From a virus: a stretch of DNA of 26,354 bases. Numbering within the stretch: the stretch's first letter is position 1; each line of letters starts with the position of its first letter. Below the pieces are notes generated by a model that made no database searches, was not told where the DNA came from, and saw only the letters and a list, made by a program, of their open reading frames with translations. The translations under genes and the position numbers were made by a program. The DNA is taken from positions 1-26,354 of the IMG/VR virus record IMGVR_UViG_3300045016_000127; one strand, written 5' to 3'. Below are positions 1,956-26,354 of the stretch, one piece after another.

Positions 1956-4535
1956 TTAGTCGGGGGGGATGGTAGACGGCTGGGCCGGCCGGGCGATGAC
2001 AGACGGTTGGGCCGGCCGGGCGATGGTAGGCGGTTGGGCCGGCCGGGGGATGGCAGAGGTTCGGAAGGTGCGGGTGAGCCGGCCAGAAGGCTGCCCGGCC
2101 GCCTGGCCGTCGGCTGCTATGCGGCGGTGTCGGAGAACCGACGCCGCTACCGGCTGCGCGGCGGCCCTTCCGCTCCCGGTGAGGCGTCGGCGTCTGAGGG
2201 TCGTCGCGGCTACCGGCTGCCCCGCCGCCTGCCCGGTCCCGGCCATGTGGAGGGCGTAGGTGACTTCCAGCCAGGGGACAACCGAGTGAATGTAGATGTT
2301 CGGGAAGTTGCGGTAGGCGTTGGTCGAGGAGCCGTTGTCGAGCAGGAGCAGGGCGATCCGGTTGCCTGACGCCCAAGAGGTTTGGAGGACGATCTCTTGG
2401 ATGACCGCGGCGATGTCCGCATACGCGACCCCGACGTTGGCCGTTTGGGCGGCGAGAGCGTTCCAGTCGACGTAGGCGACGGTTTGGGGGAGGGCGGCGA
2501 GGTCGGCGGCGGTGGCGGCGGTGAGGTCGGTCGAGTTGTCCGCCTGGAGGACGGCCCGCACTCTGACGTTGCAGGTGGCGGCGGATAGGGTGCTGATGGA
2601 CTGTTGCCGGAGGACGGCGGTGAGGATGGTCGCCCCGCGGGGCACCCGGAGTCGGCGGCGCAGGATAGTGTTCAGCGAAGTAGCACCGCTCTTGCCCATC
2701 TGTACCTGAATGCCGTACCAGCCGTTTGCCCCGGTCCAGTAGTAGGTGTCCTCGCCTTGGCCGACGACGTTGGTGACCGCGGTGTTGGCGGGTGGGGTGA
2801 TGATCGCCCACAGGGTTATCAGGCCGGGCAGCCCGTAGGCTGTCCCGTACCAGCCTCGGTTTGCATAGGTGGAGGAGCCGTTGTCGCGGAGGACGAACTG
2901 GACGGCGTTGCCGGAGGCGTATCCGGCCCGGTTCACGATGGTCTGTAACGGTGCAGCGATGTCCGGGCTTTGGCAGCCGTGCCCCTTGTAGTAACTAGCG
3001 ACGGGGCAGGCCGGTATGGCGTTCCAGGCAACCGCGGCGGTGAGGGCGAGGGCTTCCCCTTGGGCGGCGGTGGTGGGGGCTACCGCGTTGTCGGTGTCGT
3101 TGCCGTAGACGTTCGCGTTGACTGTCGTGACTTGGCCGAGCATCCCACCTGCCAGCCACGCCTCATGGACGGTTGAGCCCTTCGGGATGGGGCACATGGG
3201 GATGCGGACGAACCCGCCGTAGGGTGTCGTCGCTGTCTTGCCGAAGTAGCAGATGCCCGCAGCGAAAGAGGAGCCCCACCAGGCGCCTGAGTCGCCTGCG
3301 ACTTCGATCATCTTGGCGACCAGCACCGCGTTCGGGTCGGTCGTCCAGATGATCTGCAGGGCGGGCGGTGAGAGGGCGGCGTCTTTCGCCACAAGGTCGA
3401 AGGCGTTCCAGTCGCCGCAGGCCGGGTCGGGTTGGGCGACGATCTGCATGGCGTTGCCGGACACCCAGCCGGGCCGGTCCACGATCTCCTGAATCACCGC
3501 CGCCAGGTTCGGGGATTGGTAATCCACGGTGCCCGTGATGCCGTGGAGGTCCCGCCAATACAGGTAGGCGGAGGTCAGGGTGAGCGCCTCCGCCTCCGCG
3601 TAGGAGGTGGGGGCCACGGCGTTGTCGGTGTCCTCCGCGTAGAACCGCAGAATCTTGTCCCCCAGCGTGATCGACTGCGAGTACCCGGCGACTCCACGGT
3701 GAATGATGCGGGCGCTGAGTATCCGTGCCCCCTGCGGGATGGTGACGGAGGGGACACGGAACCCGGCTTTGAGGGTGCCGCCCATCCCCACCCAGGCGTT
3801 GCCCACGAGGGTCCAAGTGTTCCCCTGGGCGTCGGCCTTCGAGGTCTGCTGGGCAGCCCAGGTGGTGAAGTCGGGGGAGGCGACGATGGTGCCGCCGATG
3901 CCGTCGCGGATTTCCGCCGAGTAGAAGCGGCCAGGCAAACCCCCCAGCCCTGCCGCCGTGTAAGCCCCCACCTTCATGCCTGTTCCCACAGGCGAGTAAA
4001 GGGTGTACGGCCCCGCAGCGTCGGTCACCGTCGACCCCAACTGTGTCCAGGTGGAGCCGTCGGACGAGGTGTAGAACTTGGTCACGGCGTTGCCCGCGCC
4101 GTCGTCGGCGTCAAATGTGACCCTGACCCAAATGTCGGTCACACGGTCCACCACGCCGGGCAGACTCGCCGTACAAAGATGCTGGATGAAAGTGGAGCCG
4201 TTTACAGTGAAGAGAAAGTCCGGGGCGCCGGTCGCAAGCAGTCGCAGACCCCAGCCGAAATGAGTGGCATCAACCGCATGGGAGGCAAGGTACTGCGCCG
4301 AAGCAGGGGTCCAGTCCAACGCTGTGCATCGCACCCGAACATCCAAGTCCCCGGTGATGGCCGTCGTCAGATTCGACGTGACACAGTCGCCCGTCCCGTC
4401 GAGGTGGACGGCCATGACCGTGCCCGAGCACTTCCCGCACCGCAGGTAGGTGTCCGCCGCGGAGAAGTAGGAGTCTGCCGACCGGGTGTGCCAGTCGTCC
4501 GCTCCGACACCAGCCGGGAAGATGCCGAGGGGCAT
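1956..4535 (-). CDS. Large appendage/fibre protein with three repeated beta-sandwich domains
   Basis: 859 residues. Residues about 40-230 look like a lectin/LamG-type sandwich (DLDVRVRCTALDW, FLFTVNGSTFIQHL, DIWVRVTFDADDG, KFYTSSDGSTWTQLG). Three diverged copies of one domain follow at about 262-400, 410-580 and 592-762. Each has a 'P-x-G-A/S-x-I/V-x-x-A' start, a 'DN-x-x-x-x-T' loop, an 'A-A-V-I-Q-E-I-V' type helix and a 'W/Y-x-S-G-N' turn, as in DNRLRE-like sandwiches of surface proteins. The tail (about 765-859) is arginine-rich with QPVAA repeats and three tandem RPAQP units. It overlaps no neighbour but starts 2 nt after the preceding stop with no clear ribosome binding site, so translation is probably coupled. 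Likely a host- or surface-binding appendage. It lies in the neck/connector part of the operon, so it could be a head or neck fibre, not a tail fibre. Confidence 0.6.
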   Translation of the reverse strand: MPLGIFPAGVGADDWHTRSADSYFSAADTYLRCGKCSGTVMAVHLDGTGDCVTSNLTTAITGDLDVRVRCTALDWTPASAQYLASHAVDATHFGWGLRLLATGAPDFLFTVNGSTFIQHLCTASLPGVVDRVTDIWVRVTFDADDGAGNAVTKFYTSSDGSTWTQLGSTVTDAAGPYTLYSPVGTGMKVGAYTAAGLGGLPGRFYSAEIRDGIGGTIVASPDFTTWAAQQTSKADAQGNTWTLVGNAWVGMGGTLKAGFRVPSVTIPQGARILSARIIHRGVAGYSQSITLGDKILRFYAEDTDNAVAPTSYAEAEALTLTSAYLYWRDLHGITGTVDYQSPNLAAVIQEIVDRPGWVSGNAMQIVAQPDPACGDWNAFDLVAKDAALSPPALQIIWTTDPNAVLVAKMIEVAGDSGAWWGSSFAAGICYFGKTATTPYGGFVRIPMCPIPKGSTVHEAWLAGGMLGQVTTVNANVYGNDTDNAVAPTTAAQGEALALTAAVAWNAIPACPVASYYKGHGCQSPDIAAPLQTIVNRAGYASGNAVQFVLRDNGSSTYANRGWYGTAYGLPGLITLWAIITPPANTAVTNVVGQGEDTYYWTGANGWYGIQVQMGKSGATSLNTILRRRLRVPRGATILTAVLRQQSISTLSAATCNVRVRAVLQADNSTDLTAATAADLAALPQTVAYVDWNALAAQTANVGVAYADIAAVIQEIVLQTSWASGNRIALLLLDNGSSTNAYRNFPNIYIHSVVPWLEVTYALHMAGTGQAAGQPVAATTLRRRRLTGSGRAAAQPVAASVLRHRRIAADGQAAGQPSGRLTRTFRTSAIPRPAQPPTIARPAQPSVIARPAQPSTIPPD
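1968..2048 (-). repeat. Three tandem 27-bp units encoding RPAQP repeats
   Basis: Units at 1968-1994, 1995-2021 and 2022-2048 differ at only a few bases and share the core GGCCGGCCGGG. They encode the C-terminal nine-residue repeats with core ARPAQPS/P and a variable pair before the next isoleucine-alanine. Being an exact multiple of three, unit gain or loss would keep the reading frame and only change tail length. Confidence 0.9.
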
Positions 4536-13859: not shown

Positions 13860-15428
13860 TCACTGTTGCCAGCGGGACTGGCGGGGGGCGGCGTAGGGGT
13901 CGTCGGCCCAGGAGCGGCTGCCCTTCGGGGCGGGCACCTGGTCGTCGTGGGCGCTGGCGCCGACCGGGCCCCCGGAGCGCAGGTCGGCCCAGGACCAGTA
14001 GGCGGCGTCGACAAGGTCGTGCGGCTTCGTTTTCGGGAACCGGCGGAGGGCCCGTTCGAGGGGGGCGCTGCCGCCCCGGACGTGCCGGATGGTGCCCCGT
14101 TCATAGTCGGCGAGCATCAGGCTGGCCCGGTGCGTCTTAGGGCCGGCGCCGGCGCCGGCTTTCGCGTCCCGGCAGGGCGGGGCGGCCCCCTTCGGGATTT
14201 GCCGTTCCCGTTCGAGGTGCCGGACCGCTTCCCGGTAGCCGGCGCGCCAGAGGTCGCCGCCCTGGTCGGTCTCGATGCCGACCCAGTCGGCGCCCAGGTC
14301 GACGGCGGTGAGGATGGCCTGCTCGAGGGCTTCCTCCGGGGTGGTGACCCCTTCCCAGGAGTAGAGGCGGTAGACGCGGCCGTCGGTGCCGGCGGCGTCG
14401 GCTTGGATGCCCTGGCAGTCGGAGCCGTCGGCGCTGCTGACGGCCGGGTCGACCCAGACGACGGCGCGGACTAGTTCGGGCACCTGGTCGGGTTCGACGG
14501 TGAGGGCGGGGAAGTCGAGATGGTCGAACATGCCGCCGGCGGGGGGTTCCACCTGGTGCTGGCATTCGGAGAGGAACGCGGTGAGGCCGATCTGGTGCAT
14601 CTCCGCTTGGGCCCGGTCAAGGTCGAAGCCTACCCAGGAGGGGGTGCCGCCGGTGATGTACCAGCGGAGGTCGGGGCCCTGCCGGTAGGCGAGGTCCCAG
14701 ACGGCGGGGACCGGGCCGGAGAGGCGGCGGCGGGTGAGGTAGTCGGCTCGGCCGTCGACGAGGCGGGCGAAGAACGAGTCGGGGTGGACGAGGTTCTGGA
14801 TGGCGATGACGGCCAGGTCGGCGCTCCCTGCGGGCAGGATCTTTTTCGTGATGGCGGTGATCTTGTGGGCGGTGGTGGCGGGGCCGTCGAGGGCGTCGTC
14901 GACGTCGTCGAGGATGATGAGGTCGGGGCGGTCCTCCACCATGCGGCGGCCCCGGACGGCCTTGTCCAGGCCGATGGCGTCGACGGTGAACGGCTGGTCG
15001 GTGCTGAGGCGGTTGCCGCGCCAGCCGCGGGCGCTGCCGTACTTGCCGAGGCGGCGGCGGGCCAGGTCCGGGTAGAAGGTGGCGACGGTGTCGGCTTCGA
15101 GGAGGGCGCTGATGGCGAGGACGTGGTCGTCGGCGGAGTCCTGCGTTGCGCTCACGTACCAGGCGTACCGGCGGGCCTGGCGGGCGCCGAGGGCGACGGT
15201 GGCCATCTCGGCGCTGGCTGATTTGGCGCCGCCGCGGTTCCAGACGGCGACGTAGTCGTCGCTGCGTTGCCCTCGGCGGATGGCCCAGACCCACTGCCAG
15301 AAGTCCCGGTGGTGGGGGCCGTCGCCGATGGGCTGCCCGTGGGCGTCCTGGAGCCAGCCGGGGAACAGGGCGTGACGCCAGATGAACGGGTCGGCTTCGA
15401 GGTCGGCTAGGAGGTCGGTGGTGGTCAC
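13860..15428 (-). CDS. terL: Large terminase subunit
   Basis: 522 residues. N-terminal ATPase: a Walker A-like NRGGAKSAS at about 64-72 and Walker B DLIILDDVDD at 169-178. C-terminal RNase H-like nuclease: VVWVDPAVSS with Asp327, DWVGIETDQGGDLW with Glu386, and HDLVDAAYW with Asp471/Asp474. Motif order and length match large terminases, which cut concatemeric DNA and pump it through the portal. The start is a GTG (15426-15428) with no strong ribosome binding site, 10 nt after the preceding stop; coupling is likely. The Walker A loop departs from the usual GKS form (GGAKS), as many terminases do. The small-subunit candidate lies about 4 kb away, across the methyltransferase cassette. Confidence 0.9.
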   Translation of the reverse strand: MTTTDLLADLEADPFIWRHALFPGWLQDAHGQPIGDGPHHRDFWQWVWAIRRGQRSDDYVAVWNRGGAKSASAEMATVALGARQARRYAWYVSATQDSADDHVLAISALLEADTVATFYPDLARRRLGKYGSARGWRGNRLSTDQPFTVDAIGLDKAVRGRRMVEDRPDLIILDDVDDALDGPATTAHKITAITKKILPAGSADLAVIAIQNLVHPDSFFARLVDGRADYLTRRRLSGPVPAVWDLAYRQGPDLRWYITGGTPSWVGFDLDRAQAEMHQIGLTAFLSECQHQVEPPAGGMFDHLDFPALTVEPDQVPELVRAVVWVDPAVSSADGSDCQGIQADAAGTDGRVYRLYSWEGVTTPEEALEQAILTAVDLGADWVGIETDQGGDLWRAGYREAVRHLERERQIPKGAAPPCRDAKAGAGAGPKTHRASLMLADYERGTIRHVRGGSAPLERALRRFPKTKPHDLVDAAYWSWADLRSGGPVGASAHDDQVPAPKGSRSWADDPYAAPRQSRWQQ

Positions 15429-15753: not shown

Positions 15754-15960
15754 TTAGGGGAGCACGGCGACCCAGGAGGCCCAGTAGAAGTGGCGGAGGG
15801 CTTGCCGGCGGGCCTCGGTGTAGGTGCCCTGCGCCCAGAAGATGGGGCTGTAGGGCTGGCCGAGGTCGGTGAAGGCCTGGAAGGCCCAGGAGCCGCGGCC
15901 GCGGGGTCGGCGGCCGTGGCTGCTTTCGTAGGGGGTGGTGTCGATGGCGGTGGTGGTTAT
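15754..15960 (-). CDS. Small conserved-looking protein with an apparent ATA start
   Basis: 68 residues: after the start TTTAIDTTPYESSHGRR, then GRGSWAFQAFTDLG, IFWAQGTYTEARRQAL and a WVAVLP end. 'RGRGSWAF ... GTYTEAxxxA ... VxVLP' is a pattern I associate with small proteins common in phages of high-GC hosts, role unknown. No ATG, GTG or TTG exists at the expected place. A strong ribosome binding site (GGGAGGA) sits 6 nt before ATA, and the ATAA junction overlaps the TAA of the preceding gene just as ATGA does elsewhere here. The simplest reading is a G-to-A change at an ancestral ATGA. Translation could start at ATA weakly, at the CTG 9 nt further upstream, or not at all. Confidence 0.55.
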   Translation of the reverse strand: MTTTAIDTTPYESSHGRRPRGRGSWAFQAFTDLGQPYSPIFWAQGTYTEARRQALRHFYWASWVAVLP

Positions 15961-16232
15961 CGGAGGTCCTCCCAGGTGAGGGCGTCGCGGCGGCAGGTGC
16001 TGGTCTGCTGCTCGGGGCTGATGGTCGCCTTGTGCCAGCGGCCGCAGCGGTCGCAGCGGACGGTGTAGGTGGTCGGCTTGCGGCGGTAGGGGTCGATGGC
16101 GAAGCGGACGAGGTTCCCGCAGCAGGGAAAGTGGCCGGCGATGGTCATGGTCGGCCTGGTGTAGATGATCTCGGGGTTCGGGTAGGCGGGGCCTTCCCGG
16201 TCCTCGGTGGTGGCGGTGGTGTTTCGTGCCAT
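15957..16232 (-). CDS. Small cysteine-rich, probably zinc-binding protein
   Basis: 91 residues. Cys37-Cys38 (HFPCCGN) and Cys60/Cys63 (VRCDRCGRWH) form a plausible zinc ribbon, with an extra Cys80; the context 'GNLVRF ... YTVRCDRCGRWHKATI' resembles nucleic-acid-binding ribbons. Function unknown. Two in-frame ATGs lie 9 nt apart; the inner one (16230-16232) is chosen because it sits exactly where transcription from the repeat promoter (16240-16268) should begin, giving a leaderless mRNA. There is no ribosome binding site for either. It is the first gene after the methyltransferase cassette. Confidence 0.6.
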   Translation of the reverse strand: MARNTTATTEDREGPAYPNPEIIYTRPTMTIAGHFPCCGNLVRFAIDPYRRKPTTYTVRCDRCGRWHKATISPEQQTSTCRRDALTWEDLR

Positions 16233-16283
16233 GCCGCACATGGTAAGGCACCCGGCGGGGGGTGTCAAGTAGGGTTCGGCAGG
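16229..16283 (-). repeat. 55-bp direct repeat, copy A (downstream edge of MTase cassette)
   Basis: 54 of 55 bases match copy B at 18333-18387 (the one difference is at 16246). In transcription order it holds the last codons of the upstream gene (PNPT and TGA), a promoter, and the ATG of the next gene. Identity stops abruptly on both sides. Confidence 0.93.
16240..16268 (-). promoter_or_regulatory. Sigma70-type promoter inside repeat copy A
   Basis: Minus strand: TTGACA at 16263-16268, a 17-bp spacer, and TACCAT at 16240-16245, then 7 nt to the ATG at 16230-16232. The -35 is a perfect consensus and carries the stop codon of the m4C-type methyltransferase gene. The distance predicts a transcript beginning at the start codon (leaderless). 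Confidence 0.75.
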
Positions 16284-17338
16284 GTGTGCGGTAGGGGTTC
16301 CTGCCGGTCGGCCCAGGTTTGGTCCTCGGCCCGGGCGAAGTGGCCGCTCTCGATTCTCCACCGGGCGAGCCGGCAGTAGTCGGCGGAAAGGTCCACGCCG
16401 AGGCCCTGCCGGCCGAGGTGGTGGGCGACCCCGACGGTCGTGCCCGTCCCGCAGAAGGGGTCGACGACGCGGCCGCCTCGGGGGGACCAGCCGAGGATGA
16501 TGCGGCGGCATAGTTCCGGCGGGTAGGCGGCGAAATGGTCGGGTAGCCGGTAGTGCTGTTTGGCCTGGTCGGGGACGATGAGGGGGCTGCTGGTGATGGT
16601 CCAGACGGAACCGGGCAGGCGGCCGAGGGGTGACGCGAAGCGGTCGGTGTTCTGCGCAAGGCCGGATTGCGAATGGCCGCGGCTAGGGGCGTCGTCCTGC
16701 CAGGTGTTAGCGATGTCGGGCCGTTTCTGCGACGGGGTGCGCCCGTAGAGGTCGAGGAAGGCTCCGCGCTCGTCGGTCGCTGTGCGGTAGGGCTCCCGTA
16801 TCTCATCCACCGCCGAGTAGTAGGTGGGGCTCAGGGTGAGGTGGAAGATGGTCTCATGGGAGCGGCGTACCCGGTCCCGCACCGACTCGGGCAGCCCGTT
16901 CGGCTTCGCCCAGATGATCTCGGCGCGGAGTATCCAGGCCCGGTCGATGAGGGCGAGGGCGATGCGCCAGGGCAGCCCTAGCCGCGACTTGGGGCGGGCC
17001 ATGCTCCTGGTGTCCTCGCCTCGCGTGGCTTGGGCGCCACCCTGGTACTTGGATTGATTCACCTGATAGGAGCGAACCGCCGAATACTTGTCGTCGAGCA
17101 CCAGGAACAGGCTGCCCGCCGGTTTCAGCACCCTGCGCCACTCCGAGTCAATCATCCCCACCAGTTCATCCACATACGCCTGCGGCGACGGCTCCGCGCC
17201 GACCTGCCCTTCGATGTGCTCCCCGCCGTCACGGTACGACCGGAGGCCCCAGTAGGGGGGCGACGTGAGGATGAGGTCGGCGGTCCCGTCGGCTAGGGGC
17301 AGGTTGCGGGCGTCGGCTTGCGCGACTAGCCAGGACAC
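16265..17338 (-). CDS. Beta-class DNA methyltransferase, probably N4-cytosine or N6-adenine
   Basis: 357 residues from a GTG at 17336-17338, which overlaps the C5-methyltransferase by 13 nt; the upstream extension of the frame has no methyltransferase features. Motif IV (TSPPYW, residues 25-30) comes first and motif I (DPFCGTGTT, from residue 293) near the end, the order of beta-class amino-methyltransferases. The SPPY form is commonest in N4-cytosine enzymes but also occurs in N6-adenine ones. The AdoMet pocket is complete (GLGVDLSADYCRLA after motif I). The middle (about 90-270), WRIALALIDRAWILRAEIIWAKPNGLPESV, is typical of this family. No specificity subunit or nuclease is adjacent, so it may be a protective methyltransferase of the phage. 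Its last residues (PNPT) come from repeat copy A. Confidence 0.85.
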   Translation of the reverse strand: MSWLVAQADARNLPLADGTADLILTSPPYWGLRSYRDGGEHIEGQVGAEPSPQAYVDELVGMIDSEWRRVLKPAGSLFLVLDDKYSAVRSYQVNQSKYQGGAQATRGEDTRSMARPKSRLGLPWRIALALIDRAWILRAEIIWAKPNGLPESVRDRVRRSHETIFHLTLSPTYYSAVDEIREPYRTATDERGAFLDLYGRTPSQKRPDIANTWQDDAPSRGHSQSGLAQNTDRFASPLGRLPGSVWTITSSPLIVPDQAKQHYRLPDHFAAYPPELCRRIILGWSPRGGRVVDPFCGTGTTVGVAHHLGRQGLGVDLSADYCRLARWRIESGHFARAEDQTWADRQEPLPHTLPNPT

Positions 17339-18336
17339 GGCTGGTGTCCGGTTGGGGGGGGCAGGGTGGCCCAGGAGCGGCGGGCTGCTGCTACCAGGCG
17401 TGCGCCGATCCATTCGGCGACCGGGACGCAGACAGCGTTGCCGAACTGGCGGTAACGGTGCGAGTCGGCAAGGTGGTCGTTCCAATGGTCGGGGAACCCT
17501 TGGAGGCGGGCGCACTCGGTCGGGGTGAGCCGTCGGACCCCTGTCGATGCGAGCAGGGTTTCCATCCTGGTGGTCCCCGAGTGCTCTGCTGGGAGTGCCA
17601 CGGCGAGGTCGCCGATCGCGCGTACCTCGTCCCGCTGGTTGTGGGCGAAGGCGACGGTTGGCACCCACGCCCCTTGCCCGTCTAGATCGGTGGACCGGAA
17701 ACCGCCCTTAGAGAGGCTTCCAAGTGTGCCGGCAACCTCTTGCCCCGCTTCGCGGCGCGGCGGAGGATCCCCTGCGCAGCCCTGGCCGAGATCGAGTACC
17801 CGGACAGGTCCCCGGTGGTCTCCAAGATGGCCGACAACGAAGACGCGGCGGCGCCGCTGGGCCACTCCGAACCATTGAGCGTCAAGCACCCGCCAGGCCA
17901 CGCTATACCCGAGTTCCGCCAACCCCCCGAGGAGGGCGGCGAAATCCTCCCCCCGGTTTGCGGAGAGCAGGCCGGGGACGTTCTCGACAACGCACCAGGC
18001 GGGGCGGCTGCCAGCCAGGATGCGATGGAACTCCCACCAGAGGCCGGAGCGTTCCCCAGCCAGGCCTCGACGGCGCCCGGCGACGGAGAGGTCCTGACAC
18101 GGGAACCCGCCGGAAACAACGTCGGCTGCTCCGGGCTCGGCGGGGTAGGTTCGGACGTCGTCCCATCGTGGCACATTGGGCCACCACCTTTCCAGCACGC
18201 TTACGCAGCGGGGGTCGTTCTCTACCTGGCCGACGGTTGTCATCCCGGCCCGGTGGAACCCGAGGTCGAGGCCGCCGATGCCGGAGAAAAGGGAGAGGTG
18301 TCGGGGCGGGCTGGCCTTCCTCGGGGGCGTTCCCAT
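17326..18336 (-). CDS. DNA C5-cytosine methyltransferase
   Basis: 336 residues with all key motifs in order: I (LFSGIGGLDLGF, 16-27), IV (GGFPCQDLS with catalytic Cys80), VI (ENV, 118-120), VIII (QRRRRVFVVG), IX target-side (RRLTPTECARLQGFPD) and X (GNAVCVPVAEW). The target-recognition region between VIII and IX is of ordinary size, so it is probably a full single-target enzyme that transfers a methyl from AdoMet to cytosine C5. The start ATG (18334-18336) lies 7 nt after the -10 of the repeat promoter and has no ribosome binding site. The C-terminal tail (AARRSWATLPPPTG) resembles the tail of the upstream HNH protein, also at DNA level. It is first of a two-gene cassette with the next methyltransferase. 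Confidence 0.93.
   Translation of the reverse strand: MGTPPRKASPPRHLSLFSGIGGLDLGFHRAGMTTVGQVENDPRCVSVLERWWPNVPRWDDVRTYPAEPGAADVVSGGFPCQDLSVAGRRRGLAGERSGLWWEFHRILAGSRPAWCVVENVPGLLSANRGEDFAALLGGLAELGYSVAWRVLDAQWFGVAQRRRRVFVVGHLGDHRGPVRVLDLGQGCAGDPPPRREAGQEVAGTLGSLSKGGFRSTDLDGQGAWVPTVAFAHNQRDEVRAIGDLAVALPAEHSGTTRMETLLASTGVRRLTPTECARLQGFPDHWNDHLADSHRYRQFGNAVCVPVAEWIGARLVAAARRSWATLPPPTGHQPCPG
17368..17388 (-). repeat. 21-bp segment shared with the end of the HNH gene
   Basis: These 21 bases near the 3' end of the C5-methyltransferase gene are identical to 18390-18410 near the 3' end of the HNH gene, in the same reading frame (encoding AARRSWA). The following 22 bases still match at about 16 positions. 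It looks like a degenerate extension of the 55-bp repeat block. Confidence 0.75.
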
Positions 18337-18387
18337 GCCGCACATGGTAGGGCACCCGGCGGGGGGTGTCAAGTAGGGTTCGGCAGG
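18333..18387 (-). repeat. 55-bp direct repeat, copy B (upstream edge of MTase cassette)
   Basis: Partner of copy A (16229-16283), 54/55 identical, same orientation, 2,104 bp apart. It ends the HNH gene (PNPT plus TGA), carries a promoter and supplies the ATG of the C5-methyltransferase. Confidence 0.93.
18344..18372 (-). promoter_or_regulatory. Sigma70-type promoter inside repeat copy B
   Basis: TTGACA at 18367-18372, 17-bp spacer, TACCAT at 18344-18349, then 7 nt to the ATG of the C5-methyltransferase. The TGA of the HNH gene is embedded in the -35 element. A leaderless methyltransferase mRNA is predicted. Confidence 0.75.
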
Positions 18388-18743
18388 TCGGCCCAGGAGC
18401 GGCGGGCTGCCAGGAGGCCCCGCAGGTGCTCCGCCCGGGCGTAGGCGAGCCGGTCGGGGTGGACGAGCAGGTGCCGGGCCTGCCGGCCGAGCAGCCGGTA
18501 GTGGGCGTCGGCGTACTCGGCCCAGGAGCCGTCGCCGGTCTCCCCGTCGGTGTACCGGGCGTGCCGCCAGCAGGCACACATGAGGTTGGTCGGATGGTCG
18601 CGGGCGCCGTCGGGGGTGCCGCCCATGCCGCGGGAGTGGAGGTGGGCGATCTCGGTGGCGGGGTGTTCGCAGCCGGGCCACTGGCAGGCTCCGCCGTCGA
18701 GTTCGATCACCAGGGCGCGGGTGGCCGGGTCGAGGGGTTTCAC
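18369..18743 (-). CDS. HNH endonuclease
   Basis: 124 residues from the GTG at 18741-18743 that overlaps the preceding stop (GTGA); a GTG 15 nt upstream is an alternative. The HNH core is clear: zinc ligands Cys20/Cys25 (ACQWPGCEHP) and Cys56/Cys58 (MCACWRH), His34/His36 (AHLHSRGMGG), Asn53 and His61. A helical C-terminal half (residues 75-124) ends in the repeat-encoded PNPT. Small HNH proteins next to terminase genes are needed for DNA cleavage and packaging in HK97-like phages; here it lies between the small- and large-terminase genes, which fits. It could instead be part of the neighbouring methyltransferase group as a restriction-type enzyme, but it lies outside the repeats that bracket the methyltransferases. 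Confidence 0.82.
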   Translation of the reverse strand: MKPLDPATRALVIELDGGACQWPGCEHPATEIAHLHSRGMGGTPDGARDHPTNLMCACWRHARYTDGETGDGSWAEYADAHYRLLGRQARHLLVHPDRLAYARAEHLRGLLAARRSWADLPNPT

Positions 18744-18985
18744 CAGGCTTCCGCCCACAGGTCGCCGCCGTGCGGGAGGCAGCGGTCCCGGCCCACCTGC
18801 CCGCCCGCCTCGAGGCAGCGGAGCCGGTAGTAGAGGGCTGAGCGTTCCATGCCGAGCCGGCGGGCCAGGCTTCGGATGGTGGCCGGGCCCTGCCGGAGCG
18901 CCAGGATGATCTGGCGGTCGTCGACGCGGCGGGGTCGGCCCATCTGCGGGTTGATCTCCCAGCGGGGCCGGACGGGGGGGCTCAT
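18740..18985 (-). CDS. Small helix-turn-helix protein
   Basis: 81 residues from the ATG 18983-18985, overlapping the previous stop (ATGA). Residues 22-68 form a winged-helix-like DNA-binding domain: DRQIILALRQGPATIRSLARRLGMERSALYYRLRCLEAGGQV, a classic helix-turn-helix with a recognition helix MERSALYYRLR. The N-terminus is basic and proline-rich, and the C-terminus has a lone Cys and a tryptophan pair. It could regulate this operon or act in packaging; neither can be told apart here. Confidence 0.65.
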   Translation of the reverse strand: MSPPVRPRWEINPQMGRPRRVDDRQIILALRQGPATIRSLARRLGMERSALYYRLRCLEAGGQVGRDRCLPHGGDLWAEAW

Positions 18986-19924: not shown

Positions 19925-20737
19925 CTAGTTGAGGCGGTGGCCGACGACCCAGAACAGGTCGCCGGGTCGGGTGTAGGGCCAGGCTTTGGCTTCGTAGTGG
20001 GGGTCGAGGGGGGTGCCGTCGGGGAGGGTGGCGTGGGCGGGCCGCTGGTAGCGGCTGCCGGCGGGTTGGAGGGTGACCCGGTCGGGCCACCAGGCGGGGG
20101 CCCAGCGGTTGAGGCGGCGGGTCGGGTCGGCGCCGACGACGATGCCGAGGATGGGGGGCCGGTGCTCGGGCCGCCAGTAGTGGGCGGCGTGGAGGATGCC
20201 GGCGAGGGTCATGCCGGAGCCGACGGCGAGGACGATGCGGGTCGGCTCGGGGGCCTGCCCGGGCAGGTAGGTGGCCTGATGGGCGGTTTCCTCGACGGCG
20301 GCGGCGCATTCCATGCCGAAGGGGATGAGGGGCCAGTGGCGGTCGGCGGCGTCCTGGCGGGCTCTGGCGGCGATCACGTTGTTGTAGCCGGGGCGGTGCC
20401 AGATGAGTTCGGCCTGGTCGTCGAGGGCGTGGAGTTGGGCGGGGGTCGGGTCGGCGGTGGCGGCGGTGTGGCAGCGGGCTTGGAGGCCTCGCAGGCGGGC
20501 CACACGGGCGACGATTTCGACTTGTGGGGAGTCTGAGGCGCCGGCGGTCACCACCCCGGGGGCGTGCCGGCGGGCGGCCTGGTCGACGAGGCGGGCGCAG
20601 GTGCGGACTTTGCCGCCGTTGAGGCCGCCGTAGGAGTAGAGGTCGTCCCGCTTCACCCAGATGGGCCCGGCGGCGGTGTCGTGCCGGTCGACGCGGGTGA
20701 GGCCCAGGTCGTCGGTGCCGGTGGCTGGGCGGGTCAT
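19925..20737 (-). CDS. Fold-type-II PLP-dependent enzyme (ACC deaminase / D-cysteine desulfhydrase-like)
   Basis: 270 residues. The N-terminus has the family motif WVKRDDLYSYGGLNGGKVR, with Lys43 as the expected Schiff-base lysine; GASDSPQVEIV (66-76) takes the place of the substrate-carboxylate SNH loop; AVGSGMTLAG (171-180) is the glycine-rich phosphate-binding loop; DPHYEAKAW and LFWVVGH near the end are also typical. The usual SNH is altered to SDSPQ, so substrate choice is probably different. Known members act on ACC, D-cysteine or related amino acids; some cysteine-synthase relatives do beta-replacement. The start overlaps the ParB-methyltransferase stop (ATGA). Phages use PLP enzymes in some thymidine hypermodification pathways, so a DNA-modification role is a reasonable inference, not shown. 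Confidence 0.82.
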   Translation of the reverse strand: MTRPATGTDDLGLTRVDRHDTAAGPIWVKRDDLYSYGGLNGGKVRTCARLVDQAARRHAPGVVTAGASDSPQVEIVARVARLRGLQARCHTAATADPTPAQLHALDDQAELIWHRPGYNNVIAARARQDAADRHWPLIPFGMECAAAVEETAHQATYLPGQAPEPTRIVLAVGSGMTLAGILHAAHYWRPEHRPPILGIVVGADPTRRLNRWAPAWWPDRVTLQPAGSRYQRPAHATLPDGTPLDPHYEAKAWPYTRPGDLFWVVGHRLN

Positions 20738-22137
20738 GCGGGCTTGTCCTTCCGGGGTTTGGAGGGCGGGGTGTCGGGGGGGTTGACGGCTTTCGCTGCC
20801 TTGCGGGGGGTGCCTTTGACGAAGACGAGGGCCCGGTCGTGGGCGGCGTGGTCTTTCAGGAAGACGAGGGCGTGCTGGTGGACCCGGGTCAGGCGGCGGT
20901 TAGTCCGCATGGGGGTGCCGGCGCGGAGGGGGGCGGTGCCGGCCGGTTTGACGAGGATGAGTTCATCGTGCCAGCGGGCCCCTGCTGCGGTGAACGCGTC
21001 GATGGTCTTGCGGGCCAGGTTGCGCGGGTAGCCGTCCGGGTCGCGGACGTCGCCGACTACCCAGACGGCGAAACGGTCGGGGTGTAGGCGGCTGACGGCT
21101 TTGCCGATGATGTCGGCGTGGGCCTGGTCGAAGTCGTCGGGGCTCATGTGGCTCAGGTCGGCGGGCTGGTCGGAGTACACCTCGAGGTCGTAGTAGGGGG
21201 GGCAGGAGAACAGGAGGTCGGCGAGGCCGGGGGCCTTCCGGCCGGTGAGGGCTTGGGCGGCGTCGGCGCAGTCCCAGGTGGGCCGCTCGGTGCCCGCCGG
21301 CCAGGGCAGTTCGGCGGTGTTGCGGCGGTTGGCTTCCACCTGCTCGGGGAGGAGGTCGATGCCCCGGTAGCGGTAGCCGAGTTGGCCGGCGACGATGCCC
21401 CGGACGGGGCCGCCGGCGAACGGGTCGAGGATGAGGCCGCCCGGTGGGCAGTACCAGCGGTAGACGAGTTCGCAGAGGGTCGGGTCGAACAGGGAGAGGC
21501 CGCCCTGCATGTCCAGGATCTTCGCCGACACGGGGTTAGTGGGGGCGGTGTCGTAGGCGCCGTCGGCGTGCTCCCTCCCAACTTCGGGGCGGATGCCGAG
21601 GGTGCGCCAGTAGCGGTTGCGGTCCAGCCAGGGGCCCTGCCGGGTGTCAACGACGGAGAAGGGGGGCCAGCCGAACTCGGCGGCGAGGCTGCCGAGGTGC
21701 TGGTCGGGCTGGTCGGGTTGGGCGGCTACTTGCGGGGCGAGGAGGCGGGCCAGGTCGTCGGGGCCGTAGCCGGTGCCTTCGAGGCGGTCGGCGCTGCGGC
21801 CAATGTCGGCGAGGAGGGCGGTGAGGGCGTCGGTGTCGTAGGTGGCGGCGTCGGAGGCGGCGTTGTCGACGAGGAGGATGCGGCGGGCCTGGTCGTCGTC
21901 GACGTCGACTTTGACGACGGTGATGCGCTTCCAGCCGAGGTGGGCGGCGGCCTGCCAGGTGTGGTTGCCGGCGAGGACGTGCCCGGTCGACTGCTGGACG
22001 ACGAGGGGCCGGTAGAGGCCGTGGGCCTGTAGGGAGCGGGCGATCCTTTGGACGTCGCCCCGGCGGGGGTTCGCCGGGTGCGGCTGGATGGAGTCGAGGG
22101 GAACGACGGCCGTTCGGAGGGTGGTGATGCGGCGCAT
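20734..22137 (-). CDS. ParB-domain / DNA methyltransferase fusion
   Basis: 467 residues from the inner ATG (22135-22137), 6 nt after AAGGTG; a GTG 9 nt upstream is possible. Residues 8-115 are a ParB/Srx-type domain: IQPHPANPRRGDVQRIARSLQAHG, VLAGNHTWQAAAHLGW and a DDDQARRILLVDN end. Residues about 150-430 are a methyltransferase: PPFSVVDTRQGPWLDRNRYW, motif I DPFAGG (238-243) and motif IV SCPPYYD (311-317), then VGDVRDP and VFLKD. Motif I before IV suits the N6-adenine/N4-cytosine group; the usual S/D/N before PPY is a cysteine here (Cys312), worth noting. ParB-methylase fusions are common in phages. It is directly coupled to the PLP enzyme. Target base is unknown. Confidence 0.88.
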   Translation of the reverse strand: MRRITTLRTAVVPLDSIQPHPANPRRGDVQRIARSLQAHGLYRPLVVQQSTGHVLAGNHTWQAAAHLGWKRITVVKVDVDDDQARRILLVDNAASDAATYDTDALTALLADIGRSADRLEGTGYGPDDLARLLAPQVAAQPDQPDQHLGSLAAEFGWPPFSVVDTRQGPWLDRNRYWRTLGIRPEVGREHADGAYDTAPTNPVSAKILDMQGGLSLFDPTLCELVYRWYCPPGGLILDPFAGGPVRGIVAGQLGYRYRGIDLLPEQVEANRRNTAELPWPAGTERPTWDCADAAQALTGRKAPGLADLLFSCPPYYDLEVYSDQPADLSHMSPDDFDQAHADIIGKAVSRLHPDRFAVWVVGDVRDPDGYPRNLARKTIDAFTAAGARWHDELILVKPAGTAPLRAGTPMRTNRRLTRVHQHALVFLKDHAAHDRALVFVKGTPRKAAKAVNPPDTPPSKPRKDKPA

Positions 22138-22147
22138 GGCGGGCACC

Positions 22148-22848: not shown

Positions 22849-23081
22849 CGGGGCTCCGAGGGGCTTTGCCCGGTGGCTTCGAGGAGGCTGGCCGCGAGGA
22901 GGCGGGCCTCGGCGTGAGTGAGGGAGAGGTAGGAGCCGGTCGGCCAGTGGAGTCGCACTTCCTCCCGGGGGGTTCCCCGCTCGTCCTCCCATCCGACCCG
23001 GGCGACGAGGAGGGGCCTCCCCTCGAGCATGGCGAGAGGGACCAGCAGGCCGAGGGGCAGCGGCTCGCCGCAGCGGCTCAT
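22845..23081 (-). CDS. Hypothetical protein
   Basis: 78 residues: LGLLVPLAMLEGRPLLVARVGWEDE, a beta-rich EEVRLHWPTGSYLSL and a terminal helix (THAEARLLAASLLEATG). No family is recognised and no signature residues stand out. Start and stop both overlap neighbours by 4 nt (ATGA and GTGA), so it is part of a tight early operon. Confidence 0.5.
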   Translation of the reverse strand: MSRCGEPLPLGLLVPLAMLEGRPLLVARVGWEDERGTPREEVRLHWPTGSYLSLTHAEARLLAASLLEATGQSPSEPR

Positions 23082-23398
23082 CGGCTGCTCCGGGCTCGGC
23101 GGCGGCGGTCGTCGGCGACGGCGCTGGCGCCGGCGGTCTCCAGGGTGGCGGTGAGGCCGACGAGCAGGTTGGCGCCTTCGCCGTCGGCGAGGAGGCGCAC
23201 GGTCTCGGCCTGCGCGGTGGCGAACGGGTGCGGGGGGCCGTCGGCGTCGTGGGCCATGCCGGCCTTGCGGACGGTGGCTTTGACCAGGAGCACGATCTCC
23301 TGGTCGACCTCGAGGTCGGCGGCGATGAGGCCCTGGCCGGATAGGTGGAGGGTGGTGAGGGCGGGGGGCAGGTCGACGGGCAGGCGAGGCTCGGGCAT
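23078..23398 (-). CDS. Hypothetical protein of the early region
   Basis: 106 residues from the ATG 23396-23398, chosen because AAAGGAAC lies just before it; the ATG-like start 42 nt upstream has no such site. The sequence is PALTTLHLSGQGLIAADLEVD, a strand (EIVLLVKATVRKAGM), and a helix (FATAQAETVRLLADGEGANLLVG). Beta strands around a 'VDQEIVLLVKATV' core with a Met-rich loop recall small phage proteins of unknown function near recombination genes. Arginine-rich end. Confidence 0.5.
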   Translation of the reverse strand: MPEPRLPVDLPPALTTLHLSGQGLIAADLEVDQEIVLLVKATVRKAGMAHDADGPPHPFATAQAETVRLLADGEGANLLVGLTATLETAGASAVADDRRRRARSSR

Positions 23399-25201: not shown

Positions 25202-26354
25202 TCACTGGTAGCCGTTGCCGGGCTGGCCGCCGAGGCGGGCGGCCCGTACCGAGTCGGCCATGAGCCGGTTAGCCTTCCCGCCTTCCACGGTGCGGGGGTC
25301 GAGGCCCATGCTGGCGGCGGTGTCCTCGACGACCGCTTCGGCGACCAGGAGGTCGCCGCCGGTGAACCGGGCGACCGCCTGCACGATCCGGTCGTAGGTG
25401 CTGGTGCTCTGCGGCTCCCCGGCGGGGTCGCCGGCGTCCCTCTGGATGGGAATGTCGGCGAGGCTATAGGCGGCCCAGGGCCAGCGGCCGTCGCCCCGCT
25501 TGCGCTTGCCGCCGCCTTCGCAGCGGCGGTTGGAGCAGGTGTAGGGCGGCTTCTCCCCCAGGTCCGGGTCGGTGCTGCGGTCGATGATGCGGCTGCCGCA
25601 GGTGGGGCATTGCGCGTTCGGCACGTAGACGGTGGTGTCGGGTTCGGCCTCCCCGCCGCCGAGGGCGCCGCGGGCCTGGTCCATCTCGGCGTCGGTGTAG
25701 ATGCCGGAGAGTTCGGCGGGGAACGCTTTGCGGAGGGCGAGCGCCTCGGCGCATTTGCCGAGCATCAGGTAGGGCAGTTTCGCCCACATGAACCCGGCGG
25801 GTTCCCGCAGGTCGGGGGCGTACTCGTCCCAGCGGGCGGTCGCGGTGTACGGGTAGCGGTGCCCGTCGGCGGCTATCCGGTAGACGGTGACGGTGGCGGC
25901 GAAGGGGCGGGTGCCGCCCTGGCAGCGGTCGTCGTCGATCTCGCCGTCGAAGGTCGGATCGTCGGAGCCGGCCATGAGGCCGGTGCGGGCGGCGACGAGG
26001 CGGTAGCCGTCGATGCCGGTCTGGATGGTCATGCGGTCCTGCCCGCCGGAGGTGCGGCGCTTCACCAGGTATATCTGATGCGCGATCGGGTCGAGGCCGG
26101 TGCGGGCCGCCTGGTAGAAGAAGACGGCGAGTTCCCCGGCCGTCGCGGTCGGGTTGAGTTGGGCGATGAGTTCCTTCTGCGCCGGGGTGAGGGCCACCTC
26201 GCCGGCGGCCAGGGCGGGCGGGTCGGGTCGGCGGGCGGGCAGCACCTCGGGCCGTTCCGCCCGGCGGGCGGCGGCCTCGGTAGTCTCTCGGGCTTGGGCC
26301 AGGTCGGCCAGGTCGGCCGGGTCGGGTTCCTGCCCGCCGTTGATGCGGGCCTGC
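25202..26354 (-). CDS. bet: RecT/Bet-type DNA annealase with zinc ribbon, 5' end cut off
   Basis: The frame is open to the window edge; 36 more residues (QARINGG ... AAARRAERPE) precede the GTG at 26243-26245, so the true start is outside. The core reads LNPTATAGELAVFFYQAA, LDPIAHQIYLVKRR, MTIQTGIDGYRLVAARTG, GSDDPTFDGEID, FAATVTVYR and LMLGKCAEALALRKAFPAELSGIYT, the signature of Bet single-strand annealing proteins (lambda Red beta family), which pair complementary strands in phage recombination. After it comes a zinc ribbon (CPTCGSRIIDR ... TCSNRRCEGG) and a variable tail with DTAASMGLDPRTVEG. No exonuclease partner is in the window. Confidence 0.85.
   Translation of the reverse strand, partial: QARINGGQEPDPADLADLAQARETTEAAARRAERPEVLPARRPDPPALAAGEVALTPAQKELIAQLNPTATAGELAVFFYQAARTGLDPIAHQIYLVKRRTSGGQDRMTIQTGIDGYRLVAARTGLMAGSDDPTFDGEIDDDRCQGGTRPFAATVTVYRIAADGHRYPYTATARWDEYAPDLREPAGFMWAKLPYLMLGKCAEALALRKAFPAELSGIYTDAEMDQARGALGGGEAEPDTTVYVPNAQCPTCGSRIIDRSTDPDLGEKPPYTCSNRRCEGGGKRKRGDGRWPWAAYSLADIPIQRDAGDPAGEPQSTSTYDRIVQAVARFTGGDLLVAEAVVEDTAASMGLDPRTVEGGKANRLMADSVRAARLGGQPGNGYQ

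Follow-up and report, generated by a model that had tools for sequence, protein, structure and literature searches.

Two DNA methyltransferase genes in the window (the whole 26,354-bp stretch of DNA that was analysed, an IMG/VR record) are bracketed by copies of a single gene boundary. They were probably inserted serially at the 3' end of an HNH endonuclease gene, each insertion leaving behind a copy of the HNH tail; a rough probability of two in three is attached to this reading. The promoter found in the intact copies is better read as simply part of the duplicated boundary, and serial insertion fits the locus better than does a promoter-bounded mobile element. The locus is a variant of known phage mosaicism. 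Mosaic genomes usually allow only an indirect view of how phages take up and exchange counter-restriction genes without breaking tight operons; here the insertion scar is legible as a copied tail of the neighbouring gene, which includes stop, promoter, and start, so that every gene stays expressible.

Structure of the repeat and the surrounding genes

The window is a phage genome fragment, the record probably lacking part of the genome, and carries genes for RecT, HNH, and head and tail proteins together with terminase small-subunit, TerL, and portal matches, all on the minus strand. The HNH endonuclease gene (129 aa, 18369-18758, minus strand; phrog_333, E 1.4e-6; phrog_740, E 2e-6) is placed by gene order and these matches directly upstream of a C5-cytosine DNA methyltransferase gene (336 aa, 17326-18336, minus strand; PF00145, E 3.6e-65). 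Next in order are an N4/N6 (m4C-type) DNA methyltransferase gene (16265-17338, minus strand; PF01555, E 1.3e-38), which probably uses the GTG start at 17338, and a small gene of 91 aa with CxxC pairs (15957-16232, minus strand) that is reached from the promoter in copy A of the repeat. No homologue of the small gene besides itself was found in phages or IMG/VR. The RecT single-strand annealing protein (25202-26245, minus strand; PF03837, E 4e-21) is a candidate agent of recombination between short repeats.

Repeat copies A (16229-16283) and B (18333-18387) are both read on the minus strand, are identical at 54 of 55 bases, and lie in direct orientation with a spacing of 2,104 bp; these properties, reported in the initial annotation, were confirmed by comparison and in a second contig. 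No exact repeat in the window is longer than their 37-bp core, the runner-up being 22 bp, and the hairpin in the repeat is weak (z -1.7). On the coding (minus) strand the repeat reads CCTGCCGAACCCTAC-TTGACA-17 nt-TACCAT-GTGCGGC-ATG. Copy B holds the last codons and stop of HNH, the promoter TTGACA-17-TACCAT, and the ATG of the C5 methyltransferase. Copy A, which is read here as a left-over HNH tail, supplies the m4C-type methyltransferase with its final codons and stop, and also holds the promoter and the ATG of the small gene. The promoter spans 18344-18372 in copy B (TTGACA 18372-18367, TACCAT 18349-18344) and 16240-16268 in copy A (TTGACA 16268-16263, TACCAT 16245-16240), in both cases on the minus strand. 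Gene coordinates bear out the earlier description of each copy as a stop inside TTGACA, a promoter, and a start codon: the TGA codons of HNH (18369-18371) and of the m4C-type methyltransferase (16265-16267) fall within TTGACA, and the C5 methyltransferase starts with an ATG at 18336 and the small gene with one at 16232, each 7 nt past TACCAT, so that the predicted transcripts would be leaderless. These promoters are presumably active.

When 2,104 bp (one copy and the intervening DNA) were removed in silico, neither the HNH gene (129 aa) nor the small gene (91 aa) was damaged, and one promoter was kept. The claim that recombination between A and B would fuse HNH, promoter, and small gene undamaged was thereby reproduced exactly, and such a deletion would restore the ancestral order HNH - promoter - small gene, the small gene being, in this reading, the ancestral neighbour of HNH.

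Foreign genes probably inserted at an HNH 3' end

Synonymous codon usage of the methyltransferase genes departs strongly from that of the rest (z -9.7 for C5, -5.2 for m4C), and that of the flanking genes is ordinary (HNH, +0.5; small gene, +1.3). That both methyltransferases form a foreign insert between two phage-typical genes is supported. The protein ends carry traces of the boundary. The nearest m4C homologues end WADRQ..L*, whereas the window protein continues into PHTLPNPT; its last codons and stop (LPNPT*) come from the repeat and, given where the homologues end, are a repeat-derived addition. A repeat origin of the WAD motif was considered and dropped, since the homologues carry WAD natively. 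Homologues of the C5 enzyme stop about where the window protein gains the tail AARRSWATLPPPT, which resembles the HNH tail AARRSWADLPNPT.

The corresponding DNA at the 3' end of the C5 gene (17342-17387, minus strand) is a third copy of the HNH-end boundary, now degraded, with 37 of 46 positions identical, 21 bp exact, and the promoter lost. The maximum reached in 200 synonymous (protein-keeping) shuffles was 35, and the resemblance could in principle be due to chance. Since this copy lies between the methyltransferases, the locus has the order HNH-[B]-C5-[degraded]-m4C-[A]-small gene. The initial annotation had missed the third copy. At the TerL 3' end (13880-13918), a candidate fourth copy has 28 of 46 identities, which falls inside the shuffle null, and it was discarded. 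The window also has another, unrelated 22-bp exact repeat.

An equivalent HNH locus was examined in mycobacteriophages using junction alignments that yielded a series of empty, single, double, and HNH-flanked alleles. Homologues of the m4C enzyme lie directly behind the HNH gene in most of the Cheoctovirus mycobacteriophages examined. In the empty alleles of Cornucopia, Dorothy, and Nitzel, HNH ends TACCGRATMCCTAACCCTGTGGAGGCAACACAATGA and overlaps or abuts the next small gene. In the single-insert alleles of SimranZ1, Ibhubesi, and Avani, HNH is followed by a methyltransferase, a 36-bp HNH tail without its gene, and the small gene, and the tail is the same 36 bp that ends HNH in the empty alleles. 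Juniper1 carries a double allele (HNH - MT66 - tail - MT67 - tail - small gene), in which the two methyltransferases share a 52-bp repeat at their starts and a 24-bp repeat at their ends; beyond its last tail, 412 bp match the DNA after the Dorothy HNH at 99% identity. In MadMen the order is HNH, methyltransferase, a second whole HNH, and small gene, which is plausible as an intermediate. Sequences similar to the mycobacteriophage HNH boundary occur in 297 phage records; among those listed, some have the identical 42 bp as the HNH end, followed by an unrelated gene, and in about two dozen more the boundary, at times with a few mismatches, stands after a methyltransferase. The HNH proteins are only remotely alike (26% identity over 57 aa, E 0.011; phrog_740 matched at E 2e-6 in the window and E 1e-53 in the mycobacteriophages), and the comparison is therefore one of architecture, not descent. 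The presence or absence of methylases was noted for Tweety (PMC2884959), and no published description of the tail duplication was found in the literature.

Under the serial-insertion reading, the ancestral order would have been HNH - [stop / leaderless promoter / start] - small gene, and foreign methyltransferase genes would have entered beside the HNH 3' end at least twice, every insertion leaving the HNH 3' tail with promoter and start signals before the next gene. Of the three copies, A would be the remnant preceding the small gene; an older one, between the methyltransferases, would be the degraded copy at 17342-17387, and B would be the live HNH end, now driving the C5 gene. The likeliest course is that an incoming methyltransferase gene lands next to an HNH gene and recombines at the 3' end of the latter; the HNH already there would later shrink to its tail, the tail retaining stop and start signals for the next gene. 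As the window tail happens to contain a leaderless promoter, a promoter would be provided for each cargo and for the displaced gene. Nicking or breaking by HNH together with RecT-type annealing may drive the insertions, with SegB in T6 (PMC13096335) and the repeat-mediated deletions of cluster O phages (PMC4351075) as precedents. The methyltransferases would protect phage DNA from restriction, as phage enzymes of this kind usually do.

In a wider check of IMG/VR, direct repeats at gene edges were found to bracket 4 of about 110 methyltransferase genes (loci L059, 35 bp; L074, 25 bp; L118, 24 bp; L030, 21 bp) versus 2 of 597 other genes (p about 0.006-0.02). This enrichment is modest and partly post hoc and, with a small locus set to which L059 was added by hand on account of a misplaced ORF start, is suggestive only. 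In two related phages with collinear backbones, a methyltransferase of 77% identity sits at different places, one inverted relative to the other, and each place has a separate local repeat, which suggests that in these phages the repeat goes with the site rather than with the enzyme. In IMG/VR, the 35-bp repeat of L059 was found only in its own record, and it was absent from the phage collection. When an empty site for L074 was sought via the downstream gene, a related phage was found to have the gene in a rearranged neighbourhood.

Alternative explanations

The first alternative is that the module is still excisable, with frequent RecT or host recombination between A and B switching populations between the presence and absence of the methyltransferases or amplifying the module; this is a tenable possibility, if somewhat doubtful. 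It is compatible with serial insertion as to origin. The near-identity of the copies (54/55) in the same orientation, the exact restoration of both neighbours, and the presence of RecT all favour it, and A and B would still permit loss or tandem amplification of the 2.1-kb module. Precedents are the repeat-mediated deletion documented between cluster O mycobacteriophages (PMC4351075) and the nuclease-driven amplification of anti-defence genes in T6 (PMC13096335). Against it, the module is complete and invariant in both contigs spanning the locus, and no single-copy junction was present among 2.9 million viral contigs in IMG/VR, where the exact 25-bp promoter core was found in the same phage only, in two copies. 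The known relatives of the window phage are all near-identical, related contigs stemming from IMG data sets 3300045116 and 3300045117, and excision was consequently not observed; no allele lacking the methyltransferases was found for this phage in IMG/VR. Relatives of HNH besides itself were found neither in IMG/VR nor in phages, relatives at the TerL level (about 50%) are without this locus, and no prophage relatives were recovered from bacterial genomes via TerL. The proposal of a plug-in or excisable module in the initial annotation therefore stands as history, given the foreign codon usage and duplicated boundary, with ongoing mobility unproven. The variation between relatives that it anticipated was likewise seen in part, as empty and other-methyltransferase alleles at the equivalent mycobacteriophage locus; the window phage itself offers near-identical contigs only.

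A second explanation, that a mobile promoter cassette of the PeSL type has spread as one piece and that two of its insertions happen to flank the methyltransferases, is unlikely. The repeat does carry a complete promoter with stop and start codons, and shuffling of PeSL promoter cassettes in T4-type phages, as outlined in PMC4503421 (citing Arbiol 2010 and Comeau 2014), provides a precedent. However, a search for TTGACA-N16-18-TANNNT on both strands of the record gave 2 matches (0.02 expected), both in the repeat copies, and a looser promoter scan of 12-26 kb again returned only the promoters of A and B. The widely dispersed promoter that the initial annotation had held against its own proposal was thus not what was found: the 26 kb of this probably incomplete genome contain just two intact copies, and the exact core turned up in IMG/VR in no phage but this one. 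In addition, no terminator-like stem-loop was found at copy A or copy B, the shared sequence extends into HNH coding sequence and recurs promoter-less after the C5 gene, and the duplicated mycobacteriophage tail has no such promoter.

Acquisition of HNH, C5, and m4C as the block of one restriction-modification system is still less probable. A nuclease gene does adjoin two methyltransferase genes, both of which match type II methyltransferase models, but the codon usage of HNH is native and that of the methyltransferases is not, and HNH matches no PADLOC model. The mycobacteriophage HNH, moreover, occurs without methyltransferases or beside different ones, and the Tweety authors reported no well-defined restriction-modification cassettes (PMC2884959). 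A transposon or insertion sequence was also considered and rejected: two methyltransferase genes only lie between the copies, and the flanking repeats are direct and are parts of genes. Assembly error or chance similarity, to which a GC-rich window with many weak repeats might lend itself, can be set aside in view of the 37-bp exact core, the 54/55 identity overall, and a second IMG/VR contig that aligns over 11,774 bp at 99.97% identity, has both copies, and shows zero differences within 16229-18387; its same structure makes a chance assembly error unlikely.

HNH genes as possible insertion sites and comparison with known systems

A broader proposal, put forward only speculatively and rather unlikely to hold in full, is that phage HNH genes serve as landing pads for anti-restriction methyltransferases through their own 3'-end nicking or cutting together with phage annealing proteins, the duplicated tail being both scar and substrate for deletion or amplification. 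If true, unrelated phage groups could add, swap, or lose methyltransferases at a fixed place. Cultured M. smegmatis phages with the same scar differ at this locus by the insert, and so allow a direct test of whether the mechanism is HNH-driven, annealing-driven, or plain rare recombination. According to a 2025 study of phage methylases (PMC11855218), a strong association of HNH nucleases with methylases is not yet known.

The Cheoctovirus/Avanivirus locus resembles that of the window in that methyltransferases follow HNH directly and the HNH 3' tail is repeated after each; there, empty-site alleles exist and the start of the next gene is included in the repeated HNH end. It differs in belonging to another phage group with a remote HNH and no C5 enzyme seen, in lying among right-arm genes whereas the window locus lies between the small and large terminase genes, and in having a tail without the internal promoter that the window tail has. 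In lambdoid phages, morons are foreign genes that bring a promoter of their own and sit between native neighbours. The window insert is like them in its foreign composition, own promoter, and position between native genes, but no terminator was seen and the insert is bracketed by a duplicated native boundary. From what PMC4503421 relates of PeSL in T4-type phages, the window shares a repeated promoter-bearing boundary linked to gene shuffling, and differs in having two intact copies, no stem-loop terminator, and a sequence tied to the HNH end. As in the cluster O mycobacteriophages (PMC4351075), a segment lies between direct repeats; there, relatives have a single repeat, and the repeat, unlike that of the window, is a 17-bp palindrome dispersed more than 30 times. 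The T6 SegB system (PMC13096335) involves a GIY-YIG nuclease and tRNA cargo and was shown experimentally, whereas the window case is inferred only; like the window locus, it places a phage nuclease gene beside a counter-defence gene, and in T6 short homology at the 3' end of the nuclease gene is used in recombination.

Methyltransferase placement and boundary duplication in compared loci

A methyltransferase found in two related phages (IMG/VR loci L074 and L059; copies at G001:C1:23668-24621 and G002:C1:33699-34589, coordinates on the respective genomes) was 77% identical at the nucleotide level. The backbones of these phages were collinear, and the methyltransferase was located at different places and inverted, each placement being bracketed by its own, different local direct repeat. 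A small phage gene in another compared locus, L018 (17701-18192), was bracketed by a 31-bp repeat, TTAAACTAAAAAGGGAGGCAACATGAAAACA, which contains a ribosome site and a start codon; this is a boundary duplication of the same kind around a gene other than a methyltransferase.

Other repeats and genes of the window

A 22-bp exact direct repeat (18122-18143 and 23081-23102), which is shared by the C5 methyltransferase gene and the end of an unrelated gene, is probably due to chance, the sequence being GC-rich. A long gene in the tail region (1956-4535) deviated strongly in codon usage (z -18.9) and contained repeats of about 80 bp (2892/3438 and 3034/3568) and, close to its 3' end, a 27-bp tandem array (1964-2071). 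At 19925-22146, a ParB-methyltransferase gene is followed by a PALP (pyridoxal-phosphate) enzyme gene. In several phages with about 50% TerL likeness to the window phage (L006 1339-4065, L008 1554-4280, L009 3982-6142, and L017 1402-4453), the ParB-methyltransferase match encloses the PALP match at approximately residues 280 to 300, as if the latter had been inserted into the former.

Methyltransferases of cultured mycobacteriophages

In MadMen (L162, MZ747512; 1200-2601), two different HNH genes flank one methyltransferase gene, an order that is a possible intermediate in the series of methyltransferase insertions. The two tandem methyltransferase genes of Juniper1 (L151, PQ201084) share a start-boundary repeat (2420-2471/3405-3456; 52 bp, 94%) and an end-boundary repeat (3379-3402/4085-4108; 24 bp, 100%), yet the enclosed proteins are different enzymes.
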